A DNA stretch of 64,000 bases from Pantoea endophytica (GTDB lineage: Bacteria > Pseudomonadota > Gammaproteobacteria > Enterobacterales > Enterobacteriaceae): contig NZ_PJRT01000005.1 of the NCBI RefSeq assembly GCF_002858935.1, positions 310,001 through 374,000 of the forward strand, in the 5' to 3' direction. Position 1 is the stretch's first letter; each line of letters starts with the position of its first letter. A program made the translations under genes and the position numbers. Of this stretch, positions 10,881-62,748 are shown piece after piece. The notes under the pieces are model-generated. The model worked only from the letters and a program-made list of their open reading frames with translations, was not told where the DNA came from and ran no database searches.

Positions 10881-11804
10881 ATGAGAATGAAAAAAACGGT
10901 TTTTGCGCTCTGCCTGAGCGCCGCGCTGCTGGCCGGCCAAAGTTTACCGGCGCTCGCGGATGTCAATCTGGTGCCACAGGATCTCTCTGCCGCGCCCACA
11001 TTCCCCGCCGCCAGCCTGCAAACGCTGAGCTGGCTGCCGGTCGATACTTCCCGCACGCAGGTCACCACGCTGAGCGGGAGCCACAGCAACCTGAATGCAG
11101 CGGGCGTGACGGGTTCGGTGGCGGCCTACAGCTTGCCAGCCAATATCGGTGAACTCACCATTACGCTGAGCAGTGAAGTGAAACAAAATCAGGTGTTCGC
11201 ACCGAATGTGCTGGTGCTGGATGAGAACATGCGTCCGGCGGCCTGGTTCCCGGCGCGCTTTTTCACCTACCAGCAGCCGGGCGTGATGGCGGCGGATCGG
11301 CTGGAAGGCGTGATGAAACTGACGCCTGCGCTGGGTCAACAAAAGATTTATCTGCTGGTATTCACCACCGATAAGGATTTAACCGAAACCACCACGTTAT
11401 TGGATCCGGCGAAAGCCTACGCACGCGGTACTGGCAATGCGGTGCCGGATATTCCCGATCCGATTGCGCAGCACAGCCGCGATGGCACCCTGAAACTGAA
11501 AGTGAAAACCAGTTCAGGTTCATCCATTTTGGTTGGACCACTGTTTGGGTCATCGAGTCCTGCGCCGGTAACGGTGGGCAATACGCAGCCGGTTGCGCCG
11601 GCGACTTATCGTGCTGCCCCGGTTTCGGATGCAAAACCTAAACCGATCATGACGGATACCGAAGGTTACTTTAATCAGAACATCCGCGAGGCGGTTGAGA
11701 AGGGCAATATCGATAAGGCGTTGAAGCTGCTGGACGAGGCCGAGCGTTTAGGCTCCACGTCGGCCAGACAGGTGTTTATCAGCAGTGTTAAAGGCAAGGG
11801 GTAA
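10881..11804 (+). CDS. malM: Maltose operon periplasmic protein MalM
   Basis: 307 residues, like E. coli MalM. A signal peptide ends at ALA near residue 26. The mature part starts with a segment rich in Ala and Pro, then a beta-rich domain, then a Pro/Ala linker (about 225-250), and ends in a helical region (GYFNQNIREAVEKGNIDKALKLLDEAERLG). MalM is periplasmic and co-expressed with the maltose system; its exact role is not settled. It is last in malK-lamB-malM and is followed by a strong terminator. Confidence 0.93.
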   Translation: MRMKKTVFALCLSAALLAGQSLPALADVNLVPQDLSAAPTFPAASLQTLSWLPVDTSRTQVTTLSGSHSNLNAAGVTGSVAAYSLPANIGELTITLSSEVKQNQVFAPNVLVLDENMRPAAWFPARFFTYQQPGVMAADRLEGVMKLTPALGQQKIYLLVFTTDKDLTETTTLLDPAKAYARGTGNAVPDIPDPIAQHSRDGTLKLKVKTSSGSSILVGPLFGSSSPAPVTVGNTQPVAPATYRAAPVSDAKPKPIMTDTEGYFNQNIREAVEKGNIDKALKLLDEAERLGSTSARQVFISSVKGKG

Positions 11805-11835
11805 TCCGCCCCGGCAGTGCTGATTTGTCCCATCT

Positions 11836-11860
11836 GGTGCGCTTCGGCGCACCTTTTTTT
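11836..11860 (+). terminator. Terminator of malK-lamB-malM
   Basis: A perfect 7-bp stem GGTGCGC / GCGCACC closed by a TTCG tetraloop and followed by seven T, 32 bases after the malM stop. This is an ideal intrinsic terminator. Confidence 0.93.
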
Positions 11861-11869
11861 CAGGAGTGG

Positions 11870-12076
11870 GCACTGGCGTATCTGCTTCGTCACGGGCCGT
11901 CCTCGCGCCGCTAGCGCGGTGCCTTCAGCTTTCACGTCGTGCCGACGGACCATTCGGGGATCGGCCTTCCTGGCCGGCCCCGAACTGCCTCACGCATCCA
12001 TGCGTGAGTCTCCTGGCTCAACGTAAAAGCCTCAGCGCTGCGGATAGCCCTTATGCCGAAGCAGATACGCCAGTGC
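11870..12076 (+). repeat. Structured GC-rich repeat element, copy A
   Basis: A 207-base noncoding element closed by perfect 20-bp inverted arms (11870-11889 and 12057-12076; left arm begins GCACTGGCGTATC). Inside, in order: hairpin P2 CGCGC/GCGCG (11904-11918), P3 CGTCG/CGACG (11935-11947), P4 TTCGGGG..CGGCC-TTCCT-GGCCG..CCCCGAA (11953-11984), and P5 CTCACGCA-TCCA-TGCGTGAG (11989-12008). A conserved tail with TCTCCTGGCT and TCAGCGCTGCGGAT follows. The core sequence and stem order are shared with copies B and C, but the arms differ. It starts ten bases after the malM terminator, in the direction of malM. No reading frame is convincing. Confidence 0.75.
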
Positions 12077-12120
12077 TGCTAGCAATGTGCCCATTTAACA
12101 GCAGGCACTCGAGCTCATTG

Positions 12121-12320
12121 GCAGGCCGGGGTCACTTTCGGGCAGGCGATCCGCAGCGCTGAACGAAGCGAGGAAGCCAGGAGAGCCCGCAGGACGCGGG
12201 CGAAAGGCGGAGCCGGGACAGGGAAGTCCCGTCTCCGCCGGTCCGTCAGGCTGACGAGTGAAGTGAAGGTACCGCGCATGCGGCGCGAAGGCTGCCGGAC
12301 CGAAAGTGACCCCGGCCTGC
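12121..12320 (-). repeat. Structured GC-rich repeat element, copy B
   Basis: A 200-base element closed by perfect 21-bp inverted arms (12121-12141 and 12300-12320), whose sequence is unlike the arms of copy A. Read on the minus strand it has the same order of parts: P2 CGCGC/GCGCG (12287-12273), GGTACCTTCACT, P3 CGTC/GACG (12256-12244), CTGACGGACCGGCGG, P4 GGCGGAG..CGGGAC..CTCCGCC with a TTCCCT loop (12239-12206 read inward), P5 GCCCGC/GCGGGC (12201-12185), then TCTCCTGGCTT and TTCAGCGCTGCGGAT. In this direction it lies 25 bases after the malQ stop, so each of copies A and B follows the end of a converging mal operon. Confidence 0.75.
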
Positions 12321-12345
12321 AACTATGCAAGGCAACCAATAGCGA

Positions 12346-14388
12346 CTAAGCATTACGCCTCCGTTGATCGATATCCGCCAACAACGCATTGATCTGCGGG
12401 TCAGCAAACATCGCCTCCAGCGAAGCGCTGAGTTTGCGGCGCCAGTTGGGATATTGGCGGGTGGTGCCGGGAATATTCACCGGGGAAGCCATATCCAGCC
12501 ACTCTTCGGGTTGCAGGCCGAGCAGCGCGCTATTGCTGTCGGCCAGATAACGCTGCATCGCCGCACTTAACGCGCGATCCATCACCTGCGGTTCGGCCTG
12601 TTCGGGCAAGCAATTGCTGCGTTGCAGGCTCCTAATCAGGGCGCGGCGCGCGGCTAAGCGTGACTTATTCAGCCCGGCAAGAATTTGCTTATCAGGATAA
12701 AGCCCCAACTCGCTGCCCAGCCGTAAATCGTCGCTTTGCCACCAGCCGCGCAGTGTCGGCATATCGTGGGTAGTAGCGACCGCCATCGCCTGACGTGGCC
12801 AGTGGTCGGGGGCGCGAAAGGCCACTTTGGACGTCTGCTCAAAATAGAGCACTTTGTAGGAGTAAACGCCCGCCTGGTAAAGCTTGCCGATGATCTTCTC
12901 CGGCACCGTACCCAAATCCTCACCAATCACCATGCAGTGATGACGCTGACTCTCCAGCGCCAGAATCGCCAGCAGATCGTCGATGGGATAATGCACATAC
13001 GCGCCTTCGGCCGCGCTTTCGCCCTGCGGGATCCACCACAGTCGCAGCAGCGCCATCACGTGATCGATGCGCAGCGCGCCGCAGTCGTGCATGTTGGCGC
13101 GCAGCAGATCAATCCATGGCTGGTAGGCGCGCGCCTGCATAATCTGCGGATCCATAGGCGGCAATCCCCAGTTCTGGCCCAGCGGGCCGAGGATATCCGG
13201 CGGCGCGCCGACGCTGGCCTGCAAGCAGTAAAGCTCGCGATCGCTCCAGGTTTCCGCGCCGCCCTGCGCCACGCCCACCGCCAAATCGCGGTATAAGCCA
13301 ATCGGCATCGCCTGCTGCTGGCACACCGCCCAGCAATCAGCAAACTGGCGCGCGGCCAGCCATTGCAGCCACAGATAAAAGCGCACTTCATAGGTGTGTT
13401 CGATGCGGAATGCCCGCACCGCTGCGCTGTCTGGCGACTGCAACGCCGCAGGCCAGGTTGTCCAGTCGTAGCGCTGAGGGGCTTCGGCGATCTGCGCAGC
13501 GTGCAGCGCATCAAACACGCCCTGATGCAGCAGACTTTCACCGCCTTGCTGCATAAAACATTCAAAGGCGACAACCAGGCCATCATCCGCACCGCGCTGC
13601 CTGAACTGCTGCCAGGCGAGACGCAGCGCCTCCAGCTTGAGGTGAGTAACCGCTGAGTAATCGACCCACTCAGCGTCCCGCGCCGCCTGTAACGCCTGCT
13701 GCGTGCTGGTCGCCTGCCACCAGCGTTGCGCTTCTTCACTCAGCGTAAAATCCTCAACGGCGGCGACATCGATATACAGCATATTGAGCCAGCGCCGCGA
13801 CGAAGGGCTGTACGGACTGGCGCTTTCCGGCGTTGCCGGGAACAGCGCATGCAGTGGATTCAAGCCAATGCAGGCACCACCGCGCTGCGCAACCTCAACC
13901 AGCATCTGCTTTAAGTCGCTGAAATCGCCGATTCCCCAGTTGGACGCCGACCGCAAGGTATACAGCTGAATGCAGGCGCCCCACAGCGATTGCCCTTGCT
14001 GGATGGCTGGCGGCTCGTAACAGCGCACGGGCGCGACAATAATCCGGCAGTGAAATGCCTGTTGCTGGACGCTAAAGCTGAGCTGGTGATAACCCAAAGG
14101 CAGCGCAGGCAAAGCGATCGGCCGGTTGGCGATTGCGCGACCTTGCCAGCGTTCGCCCTGTTCCGCGATCAGCTGCCATTCGCCTGTTATGCCGGGCGCA
14201 GGCAGCACAATCTCCGCCTGTTCTCCCTGAACGATCAATACCGGCGGCAGCGGCGAAGCGTGCGGTTGCGCGGGATGCATCGCCGCCAGCAAACGCTGGC
14301 GGGTAACGGCAGAAACCGATTGCAGCTGGCCGTGCGCGTCGATGTATTCGCTGGCGATTTCGGCGGTTGGCGTCATGGTGCTGTTCAT
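12346..14388 (-). CDS. malQ: 4-alpha-glucanotransferase MalQ (amylomaltase)
   Basis: About 680 residues (E. coli 694), family GH77. I start it at ATG 14388 ([17 protein letters not shown]), which overlaps the malP stop as ATGA; the frame extends further upstream but only inside malP. Catalytic segments are visible: the Asp of [15 protein letters not shown] and the Glu of [11 protein letters not shown]. The enzyme moves glucan units between maltodextrins in the cytosol, releases glucose and makes longer chains that MalP can attack. It is the second gene of malPQ. An N-terminal extension of about 130 residues before the barrel is typical of enterobacterial MalQ. Confidence 0.95.
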
Positions 14389-16778
14389 CGCGCGGCCTGC
14401 CAGATGCGTTGCTGATAGTCGCGGATGGCGCGATCGGCGCTGAACATGCCGCAGCGCGCGGTGTTGAGAATCGCGGCGCGCGTCCAGCCATGCTGATCGG
14501 CCCACAAGGTTTCTGCCTGCGCCTGCGCGTTGAGGTAGTGACGAAAATCGGCCAGCACCAGATAAGGATCGCCGCCTTTGGCGCTCAGGCTGTGCAGCAG
14601 CGGCTCGAACGCGGTGACGTCGCCGTCGCTAAAGGTGCCGTCTTCTAACGCTTTCAATACCCGATCCAGCTGCGCATCTTTTTTGCGCCACGCGTCAGGC
14701 GAGTAACCTTCTGCTTGCAACGCGCTGACCTGATCAACGGTATGACCAAAGATAAAGATATTGTCGCGCCCAACCTGCTCAGCGATCTCCACATTGGCGC
14801 CATCCAGCGTGCCGATGGTTAAGGCGCCGTTCAGCGCCAGCTTCATGTTGCCGGTGCCGGATGCCTCTTTGCCAGCGGTAGAAATCTGCTCGGAGAGATC
14901 CGCCGCCGGGATCAGCCGCTCGGCAACCGTAACGTTGTAATCAGGCACAAACACCACTTTCAGGCGATCGCCAATGCGCGGATCGTTGTTGATGGTGGCC
15001 GCCACTTTGTTAATCGCATAGATGATGTTTTTGGCCAGCACATAACCCGGCGCGGCCTTGGCACCAAACAGCACCACGCGCGGCGTCAGGTTGGCCTGCG
15101 GATCGCTCACCAGCGTTTGCCACAGCGCGATAATGTGCAGTAGCGCCAGATGCTGACGCTTGTACTCGTGCAGGCGCTTGATCTGTACATCAAACATCGC
15201 CTCAGGATTCACCTGGATGCCGGTGCGTTCTGCAATCCAATGCGTCAGCGCAACCTTGTTCTGCTGCTTGATGGCGCGATACTGCGCCTGGAATGCGGCG
15301 TGATCGGCGTAGGTTTCTAACGCTTTCAGCTGATCGAGATCGGTGAGCCACGGCTGATCGAGGGTTTGGCTGATCAACGCCGCCAGCGCCGGATTGCACT
15401 GATTAATCCAGCGGCGCGGTGTGATGCCGTTGGTGACGTTATGGAATTTCTCCGGCCACAGCGCGTGATATTCCGGGAACAGATCTTTCACCACCAACTG
15501 CGAGTGCAGCGCCGCCACACCGTTCACCGCAAAGCCGCTGGTGACGCAGAGATTGGCCATGCGCAGCTGGTTATTGTGAACCAGCGCCAGTTTCGCCCAA
15601 GTCACTTCGTCGCCCGGCCAGCGCGCTTCCACCTGCTTCTTCAACTGAGCATTTAGTTGGGTAACGATCAGCATGTGGCGCGGCAGCAGGGCGCGCACCA
15701 TGCGCACATCCCAGCACTCCAGCGCTTCAGGCATCAAGGTGTGATTGGTATAGGCAAAGGTGTGCTGGGTAATATGCCACGCCTCGTCCCAGCTCAGCGC
15801 GTGTTCATCCAACAGCAGGCGCATCAGCTCGGGGATCGCCAGCGTGGGATGGGTATCGTTGAGCTGAATCACTTCATGATCCGGCAAGCTGGCAATGCTA
15901 CGGCCGGCGCGCTGATGACGGCGCAGAATATCCGCCAGCGAGCAAGCGCACTGGAAATACTGCTGCATCAGGCGCAGCTTTTTGCCGTTGTCGTGATTGT
16001 CGTTGGGGTAGAGCACTTTAGTGAGTTTTTCAGCTTCAATGCCCGGCTGCTCGGCGCGCAGAAAATCCCCGTTATTGAAGCGCTGCAAATTAAACGGCTG
16101 CGCATGTTTCGCCTGCCACAAGCGCAGCGGCTGAGTGACGCCATTCTGATAACCGACCACCGGCAGATCCCAGGCTTCGCCGAGAATTTGCACCGCCGGC
16201 TCCCAGCGCGCAACGCCATTGTGCGTGATGACTTTGCCGCCGAGATGCACCGGCACAGTTAACGCCGCGTTATGGTTAAACCACGGATAGCTGTCGCGCT
16301 GCCAGTCATCCGGCATCTCCTGTTGCGCACCATCAACAAAGTGCTGGCGGAACAGACCGTACTGATAACTGAGTCCGTAGCCGGTGGCGGGTTGTCCCAC
16401 GGTTGCCATCGAATCGAGAAAACAGGCGGCGAGCCGGCCCAAACCGCCGTTGCCCAGCGCCGGATCGGTTTCACACGCTTCCACGTCGCTCAGCGTGATA
16501 TTCCACTCGGCCAGCGCCTCGTTCACCTCGTCATACCAGCCAAGGTTGAGCAGATTGTTGCCGGTGAGACGACCAATCAAAAACTCCATCGAAATGTAGT
16601 TAACGTGACGCTGCGGCGTGGCCGCTGGTGGCGCAGGCATCTCCGCCAGCATGTCGGCCAGTGCGCCACTCAGCGCCTGCCACCATTGGTTTGGCGTCAT
16701 CTCTTGCGCATCGTGCAGACCAAAACGTTGCCATTGTCGGGTTAGCGCGTGTTTAAAACGGGTACGGTCAAATTTCAT
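14385..16778 (-). CDS. malP: Maltodextrin phosphorylase MalP
   Basis: A 797-residue glycogen/maltodextrin phosphorylase, the same length as E. coli MalP. The PLP-binding region [23 protein letters not shown] is near residue 640, with the cofactor lysine in GNMK. The N-terminal [10 protein letters not shown] and [15 protein letters not shown] segments are conserved. It splits terminal alpha-1,4 bonds of maltodextrins with phosphate and gives glucose-1-phosphate. It is the first gene of malPQ, transcribed away from malT, and has MalT boxes upstream. Confidence 0.96.
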
Positions 16779-62154: not shown

Positions 62155-62423
62155 TCAATTGCCTCGTTTAGCCCACGCAGGGGCAATGGACGACATCAAG
62201 CGATTCGCTACTGGCTGAAAACGATAAATAATTTGGGATGAAAGTTAGGTCGGACAACAAATCATAGTCGATATTTTGGCGTTTTCTGGCGCGCGCGAGA
62301 GGATTTCAGGTGGGTTTAAGAAATTATCGAATTAGCGGGGGATTTTTACGCTTCGGTTAGATGAGGTCGCCATGAATGGCGTAATGCTGCTCAGTTAAGC
62401 GCCGAGCGACTTTCGTTCGCCCT
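62155..62423. other. Upstream region of treZ
   Basis: No gene seen. It must hold the treZYX promoter on the minus strand. A GGTCGCCATGAATGGCGT palindrome (about 62365-62382) belongs to the extragenic palindrome family noted elsewhere. No clear CRP or MalT box is found, so the operon may be under stress control. Confidence 0.5.
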
Positions 62424-62662
62424 ATGCTGAGGCAGTTGCAGTATCTTCGTGCGGCGACCGAGCAGAGGACGCCTGGCCGCGCCCTCTGCACTCCCGGGCC
62501 TTGCGCCAGCCCAACCCGCCGCTGCGCGGTGCCTTCACTCATTCACGATTCCTGACGGACCGGCGGCGATTCGCTCCTGCTCAGCGCCACCTCTCGCCGC
62601 ATCCCTGCGGCTCGCCCTGGAATCCCTCATTCGTTCAGCGGATTGGGATGTCGCCTCAACAT
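62424..62662 (+). repeat. Structured GC-rich repeat element, copy C
   Basis: It shares the core of copies A and B: CGCCGCTGCGCGGTGCC, TTCACTC, CTGACGGACCGGCGG (about 62552-62566), hairpin P5 GCCGCA-TCCC-TGCGGC (62596-62611), then CCCTGG and TTCGTTCAGCGGATTGGGAT. The outer arms are weaker here (ATGCTGAGGC 62424-62433 with GCCTCAACAT 62653-62662, nine of ten pairs). It has an extra hairpin GCAGAGG/CCTCTGC (about 62463-62490). It lies between treZ and the ProP-like gene, on the strand opposite to both. Confidence 0.65.
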
Positions 62663-62748
62663 CCGCGCTGCAGCAGTCGTGCGTATTCTTAACTCAAAAT
62701 CGCTTTAAATCCCGCAGGACTGCGGCCCTTGTTAATGCCGACTCGAAA

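Follow-up and report, generated by a model that had tools for sequence, protein, structure and literature searches.

The analysis of a 64-kb stretch of Pantoea endophytica DNA (64,000 nucleotides, hereafter the window) reveals two structured elements, A and B, in the gap between malM and malQ, which almost certainly belong to the RNA family TwoAYGGAY (RF01731) and form part of a dispersed repeat. The best overall explanation, which we place somewhat above an even chance, is that this divergent TwoAYGGAY pair in a dispersed repeat is a mobile 3′-region module binding CsrA dimers. A and B are one half each of a single non-autonomous dispersed repeat, whose conserved cargo is the divergent TwoAYGGAY pair. 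The features concerned are given below, where R1 is a covariance model built here from 23 cores, with a training set that includes A, B and L028, the close copy of a third element, C.

11870 to 12076, minus strand: element A, an A-type TwoAYGGAY with its closing arms (RF01731 match and R1 core)
11870 to 11889, no strand assigned: one half of the A outer arm, pairing perfectly with 12057 to 12076 over 20 bp
12057 to 12076, no strand assigned: other half of the A outer arm (inverted-repeat search)
12077 to 12120, no strand assigned: linker separating the divergent A and B, recognisable in other copies (alignment and flanks)
12121 to 12320, plus strand: element B, a B-type TwoAYGGAY with its closing arms (RF01731 match and R1 core)
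12121 to 12141, no strand assigned: one half of the B outer arm, pairing perfectly with 12300 to 12320 over 21 bp
12300 to 12320, no strand assigned: other half of the B outer arm (inverted-repeat search)
12343 to 12359, no strand assigned: terminal-sequence remnant of the repeat, with GCATTACGCC at 12350 to 12359 (by-eye comparison with the flanks of other copies)

The gap hosting both elements lies between the convergent genes malM (10881-11804, plus strand; PF07148) and malQ (12346-14505, minus strand; PF02446 and MalQ_N), the gene names being confirmed by Pfam, and the A+B element, with its terminal-repeat remnant, extends to approximately 12359. The only terminator-like site, at 11836-11853, follows malM and precedes A on the plus strand; the consensus scan gave zero promoter-like sites at 11800-12400 and, at A and B, no independent sRNA gene of the CsrB type with its own promoter and terminator. 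The malQ stop codon in the window seems, from the sequence, to be supplied by the repeat. The remnant overlaps the final codons of malQ (window 12343-12372), and the C-terminal end of the malQ product in genome G004 reads DIDQRRKRV-stop, differing from that of the window.

An Rfam cmscan of the 64 kb at gathering thresholds gave two matches, both to RF01731, namely B at 12178-12254 on the plus strand (45.8 bits) and A at 11903-12055 on the minus strand (43.8 bits), each reaching the gathering score of 43, so that the statement of the initial annotation, made from the letters of the DNA, that no named family with this plan was known (though one was not excluded) has to be given up. Using R1, the matches with E below 0.01 were B at 12177-12250 (+, 72.5 bits), A at 12016-11941 (−, 65.0 bits) and C, and the next window matches, with E of 0.084 and 0.43, were taken as chance. 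The combined covariance-model and Rfam check that had been suggested thus gave A, B and C with R1 and A and B with RF01731. The earlier proposal of three copies holds in that R1 matches all of them, but C is a diverged relative of A and B that falls under the RF01731 cut-off:

62551 to 62620, minus strand: core of copy C (R1 50.1 bits, E below 0.01; under the RF01731 gathering score)
62365 to 62387, minus strand: terminal repeat GCATTACGCCATTCATGGCGACC near copy C (exact match; 0 in 100 shuffles)

Round copy C, within 62300-62720, the repeat finder detected no inverted arms as long as 10 bp. The words described as common to the cores were recovered as inverted copies in A and B, TCAGCGCTGCGGAT within 12032-12049 and 12145-12162 and CTCCTGGCT within 12009-12018 and 12175-12184. 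Against dinucleotide shuffles, the A and B cores have the better fold on both strands (z on the TwoAYGGAY strand of −3.1 and −4.0, with a lesser −2.0 for C), and the two strands of the elements fold about equally well, a point against the CsrA reading. The TTCCT and TCC loops of the initial annotation were seen, but they correspond to GGA loops on the sense strand, the minus strand in A and C and the plus strand in B. Both hairpins carry such GGA loops; the literal AYGGAY is present only in loop 1 of A, and the other loops deviate from it. The TwoAYGGAY motif was described by Weinberg et al. in 2010 and is listed, in the part of that paper covering it, as likely to be an RNA and unlikely to be cis-regulatory (PMC2864571), unlike the Rfam type of RF01731, which is Cis-reg. 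RF01731 belongs to Rfam clan CL00106, and in the region 11800-12400 a member family of the clan also matches, with overlap and a lower score. A and B resemble RF01731 in their two GGA-loop hairpins in the same order and their external stem, and differ in that the loops are CA(N)GGA(N)G, not strictly AYGGAY, and in that the modules form a divergent pair within a dispersed repeat, a setting that the consulted portions of the published descriptions do not give; likewise, in those portions of the literature on TwoAYGGAY/RF01731, no description of the motif as a repeat or as a pair was found.

The case for a structured RNA is carried by the core. In the alignment A2, fitted to the R1 structure and comprising 150 of 163 hits (116 distinct cores), the paired share of cells is 93.6%, compared with 60.9% after shuffling and 31-49% in slid controls; both sides have changed in 522 cells (154 after shuffling), and the covariation score is 0.696 against 0.159. 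The earlier claim that pairing is kept while bases change is therefore sustained, and the larger alignment that had been named as its check agrees with it. Counted by pairs, double changes do not exceed the shuffled level (14 pairs with at least one against 13.4, and 210 of 500 shuffles reach as many), because nearly every pair has one. Compensatory change is also seen in 14 of the 16 pairs when 23 cores are aligned without fitting to the structure. Among the non-Watson-Crick cells of the core on the TwoAYGGAY strand, G-U exceeds A-C by 30 to 8 (two-sided p 0.0005; the rows are related). Such an asymmetry is expected of RNA, and a DNA hairpin should be symmetric. Core covariation and the G-U bias together point to a structured RNA. 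Identity with a mobile repeat had been offered as grounds for refuting the fold: the elements do form a dispersed repeat, but the covariation and the G-U excess of their cores still indicate a structured RNA.

The outer arms present a different picture. The perfect inverted arms reported earlier for A (20 bp) and B (21 bp) are present at the positions listed above, and they are two of the three perfect inverted repeats of at least 16 bp (gap at most 260 bases) in the 64-kb window, a class with zero members in each of 20 single-base shuffles of the window. The third is at 36456-36474/36488-36506 (19 bp, 13-base loop). Perfect arms are peculiar to the window copy: over the compared stretch, the A arms have 2 mismatches of 24 in the window and 4-8 in ten other A copies, the B arms have 1 of 23 in the window and 2-5 in eleven other B copies, and the C types fail to align. 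Several arm positions in the window copy are altered identically on both arms relative to other copies. After removal of duplicates and of rows with less than 60 nt of flank (136 of 150 remaining), G-U and A-C arm mismatches stand at 45:46 in the P. endophytica genome (25 copies), 83:81 in other Pantoea and the order (81 copies) and 59:58 in Lachnospiraceae (23 copies). Template switching in replication has been proposed, in the part of the source consulted, to create and repair RNA stems of this kind (PMC8794818). As the arms have no G-U bias, DNA events of this kind would suffice for them. The differing perfect arms of A and B had been read as a sign of selection on a fold, an argument that the equal G-U and A-C mismatches undercut; the long arms lend it no weight, and this is a case where perfect compensatory arms alone are no evidence of RNA selection.

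This pattern bears on an alternative that we regard as improbable, in which the elements are DNA hairpins or cruciforms recognised by a trans-acting transposase, as RAYT acts on REP/BIME, and the RNA-like features are incidental. The lack of a G-U preference in the outer arms favours it, as do the arms in 13 of the 33 copies of genome G060, with a likeness of 91% inside a copy, 43% from one copy to another and 30% after shuffling, although the arm limits were set by the best local alignment inside each copy, a procedure that favours the first value. It is opposed by the preference of the core helices for G-U, by the short outer stems of Shewanella and Pseudomonas, whose G-U:A-C ratio of 14:1 (7 copies) is RNA-like, and by loop letters that are almost fixed across two phyla. 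In the preferred reading, that of an RNA module carried by a repeat, the long outer arms close the module, and their mutual identity would be kept at the DNA level, by template switching or DNA hairpins, since they have no G-U bias.

The dispersed character of the repeat is evident in the P. endophytica genome, which has 23 RF01731 matches (20 above cut-off) and 35 blastn matches to the A+B stretch. The loci fetched contain 26 cores by R1, comprising six A+B pairs, five A alone, six B alone and three of C type, the types being assigned by alignment and by eye. The terminal sequence of the repeat is ...GCATTACGCCATNNATGGCGACC, placed in opposite orientation on its two sides; with at most 5 mismatches, 7 of the 21 loci L009-L029 have both ends and 5 have one, and the window copy, whose ends are truncated, has neither. 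The end pattern has 47 genome matches (at most 3 mismatches) against 0 for a reversed control. One pair of terminal repeats serves several cargoes. A shorter element, bounded by these repeats at a distance of about 147 bp, has both ends at ten loci (L030-L038 and L040, at most 5 mismatches), and its inner palindrome TGTAGCGGCGCAAT...CGCGCCGCTACGG replaces A/B. Of the 19 own loci scored, 18 are on the 3′ side of one gene or more (9 convergent, 9 tandem and 1 divergent; crude gene calls by longest frame, with no expectation computed).

The element is like REP/BIME in being intergenic, dispersed and mostly 3′ of genes, with inverted, REP-like palindromic ends, of which the window copy keeps only a remnant; it differs in its much longer cargo and in residing in a genome that has no match to the Y1 transposase (RAYT, PF01797), whereas the same search was positive in 5 of 14 control genomes. 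A BIME driven by RAYT was rejected for want of a Y1_Tnp match. With bacterial MITEs it shares short, apparently non-coding copies in large number, terminal inverted repeats, and presence or absence at orthologous sites, including absence from sister loci; its cargo, in contrast, is an RNA module known from two phyla. A protein partner in cis was sought among 1,247 stop-to-stop frames of at least 90 aa at 111 loci and rejected, as no family was seen to recur beside the copies (the 25 largest frame clusters, judged by eye, are in-element frames or common orthologous neighbours). A phage or plasmid vector was likewise rejected, with 0 matches in phages or E. coli and 48 matching plasmid records, all Pantoea. 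For the DNA-hairpin alternative, dispersed copies with REP-like ends count in favour, and two results count against: the genome gave no Y1 transposase match, and no protein family was seen to recur beside copies.

The history of the unit can be followed at orthologous loci. The malM loci of 29 of 39 other genomes of the genus, each extended 1.5 kb past the malM match (malQ does not adjoin malM in all, as in G002), have no R1 core in any, which again accords with a transposase acting on DNA hairpins, and the sister site of the window copy differs in sequence. By eye, the malM-malQ gap of G004 and G032 has REP-like GTAGGGTCGYCATTWATGGCGACC sequences and no element, and this gap seems to be a frequent insertion site. 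In the malM-malQ gap of other genomes, L242 and L243 are small two-gene modules that resemble, by eye, toxin-antitoxin pairs. At four orthologous loci with flanks 92-96% identical, P. endophytica and G004 differ in content: P. endophytica has only B at L018 and only A at L019 where G004 has A+B (L277 and L278), and it has B at L022 and an A-like copy at L025 where G004 has A (L282) and a B-like copy (L283). The junctions at L018, L019 and L022 retain one arm stub and 2-3 bases of microhomology (by eye, the alignment being poor at the ends), which is why the single elements are read as deletion products of pairs; from sequence they look like deletion products of A+B pairs. An insertion that copies target flank into a new arm had been considered from one-armed "empty" copies and was rejected, as the P. 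endophytica and G004 orthologues resemble whole-hairpin deletions; arm renewal at transposition in Lachnospiraceae may remain compatible with the deletion pattern in Pantoea. At the L025 site, an A-like copy is retained in G023 and a pair is present in G009 (L058), and the element there is probably an old insertion kept vertically. This site, beside a gene that we take to be MurJ-like, carries the element in several genomes, as A-type, B-type or pair (L025, L053, L054, L058, L283, L287, L289).

Such losses are also what would favour the least probable of the alternatives weighed here, namely a selfish or dying repeat with no present function in Pantoea, its copies alike through recent common descent. 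The loss of A or B at orthologous loci, copies that are truncated or fused (L026, L027) and one with empty arms (L045) are in keeping with it, but it is at odds with the recurrence of these loops and this structure, compensatory changes included, in Lachnospiraceae, in Shewanella and elsewhere in the order. Under the mobile-module reading, the unit would be inherited as a pair and decay by deletion of one hairpin, as the orthologous loci suggest; as copies decay freely, many may be without function.

The distribution of the family extends well beyond this genome. With stricter filters, RF01731 matches were found in 31 of 36 genomes searched in the genus (up to 28 copies) and in 5 of 24 in the rest of the order; G026 has no match under these filters, yet BLAST copies are present. 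Three Lachnospiraceae genomes have 33, 27 and 12 matches and Shewanella corallii has 17. Across the Lachnospiraceae family, 39 of 250 genomes have RF01731 (37 above cut-off), with stricter filters and at most 10 candidates scored per genome, so that some negatives may be false. A wide DNA pattern run over genome contigs gave 95 stretches, many by chance, and of 29 genomes chosen among the matches listed (80 of 95), 10 have RF01731 at E 0.001 (8 over cut-off) and 19 have none. Of the cores that have a neighbour within 700 nt, 35 pairs are divergent, 2 convergent and 11 tandem (162 of 163 hits, L203 excluded, with identical pairs removed; the 35 divergent pairs are not independent). These 35 comprise 29 from Pantoea and the order and 6 from four Lachnospiraceae genomes, and all six Lachnospiraceae pairs are divergent. 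The sole convergent pair outside the genus is L202/L233 of Pseudomonas fontis, about 340 nt apart. In a core tree (78 columns, midpoint root), the members of Pantoea pairs split into an A clade and a B clade; as each spans species, the Pantoea unit is read as an old heteropair, and on this sequence evidence the intact unit is most readily taken as a divergent pair of two old paralogues. At L091, L094, L095 and L097 in the same genus, pairs lie within islands of approximately 1.1-1.4 kb containing tandem units of 60-120 bp and GTTCGCGCAGCGAAC palindromes.

The loops provide the link to CsrA. The form CA(N)GGA(N)G is present in loop 1 of 113, in loop 2 of 109 and in both loops of 106 of the 116 distinct cores, with a spacing of 27-30 nt between the two GGAs. 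Counted by group, both loops conform in 22 of 23 cores from Lachnospiraceae, 20 of 23 from P. endophytica, 57 of 63 from other Pantoea and the order (77 of 86 with P. endophytica included) and 7 of 7 from Shewanella and Pseudomonas. CsrA favours short hairpins exposing ANGGA, and its dimer can hold two of them, according to the sections consulted of PMC7366521. The CsrB of the same genome (183.6 bits) served as a yardstick: it has five sites of the CA(N)GGA(N)G form, with CAGGACG in two predicted hairpins, CTTCAGGACGAAG and CTCCAGGACGGAG, and CAGGATG and CATGGATG among the others. The commonest loop-1 strings of TwoAYGGAY, CAGGACG and CATGGATG (44 and 33 of 116), both occur in this CsrB. Each module thus resembles CsrB/CsrC/RsmX-Y-Z in its hairpin loops exposing ANGGA, two of the CsrA-site type per module, and in loop strings shared with its own CsrB, and differs in having two sites per module, in being dispersed and in having no promoter of its own in the consensus scan. 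CsrA binding by TwoAYGGAY had been suggested in 2014 on the strength of motif matches within its Rfam family, as given in the relevant part of PMC4333381, and no experimental or other test of the link was found in the consulted portions of the literature on TwoAYGGAY and CsrA motifs, repeats and sponges. The Rfam 12 paper, considered as a precedent for a MITE with CsrA, proved unrelated.

Co-occurrence with csrA was examined in the 250 Lachnospiraceae genomes, 121 of which have csrA (PF02599 over cut-off). It is present in 38 of 39 RNA-positive and 83 of 211 RNA-negative genomes (Fisher p 1e-12, without phylogenetic control), and the flagellar gene flhA is present in 39 of 39 and 84 of 211, respectively (the same handles being taken as the same 250 genomes). 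As flhA also tracks the RNA, csrA is weakened as a clean predictor, and flagella or clade could explain the association. The sole exception among the 39 RNA-positive genomes is G247 (one RNA copy, 1.6-Mb genome), with no csrA match. Outside this set, csrA is present in 9 of 10 RNA-positive genomes, with no match in G062 (12 RNA copies), and genome incompleteness could account for both cases; all 11 near-complete genomes compared have csrA, RNA-positive or not. Taking loops and genomes together, CsrA binding by the A and B modules is judged, from sequence comparison, to stand just above an even chance. The GGA loops could serve a protein other than CsrA, and it is quite improbable, in our estimate, that the element is a structured 3′-region RNA that binds another protein or stabilises mRNA ends with CsrA uninvolved: core covariation and the position of 18 of 19 scored loci 3′ of a gene (on crude calls) would suit such a role, but the loops match the CsrA-site pattern, with strings common to the genome's own CsrB, and the RNA co-occurs with csrA, an association that is itself confounded.

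By sequence and covariation, each module forms, on its own strand, two short hairpins with CA(N)GGA(N)G loops and GGAs about 30 nt apart; the mechanism we propose around CsrA builds on these. Read-through transcripts, mostly in the 3′ regions of genes, would fold these hairpins, and one CsrA dimer may be held across both loops of a module. The module would then act as a CsrA site on its mRNA, or the approximately 26 cores would jointly titrate CsrA. At the window locus, malQ transcripts would read A in sense, and plus-strand read-through from malM would meet the terminator at 11836-11853; as the element has no promoter-like site and is preceded on the plus strand by this terminator, the window copy would rely on malQ read-through. 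Any physiological effect of this particular copy is doubtful. Slightly more doubtful is the broadest form of the idea, in which TwoAYGGAY pairs would be mobile CsrA-binding heteropairs that spread CsrA-responsive 3′ regions in two phyla and jointly titrate CsrA, their arms rewritten copy by copy via a hairpin DNA intermediate.

TwoAYGGAY, described in 2010, has stayed an orphan RNA family, and the CsrA reading provides a testable guess at its role. What the analysis adds is the evolutionary setting, that of a dispersed divergent pair decaying by hairpin loss, together with the use of the CsrB loops of the same genome as a yardstick and a csrA co-occurrence whose confounder is named. If the reading is true, the repeat would spread sites for a global post-transcriptional regulator, in the manner of some transposons that carry transcription-factor sites.
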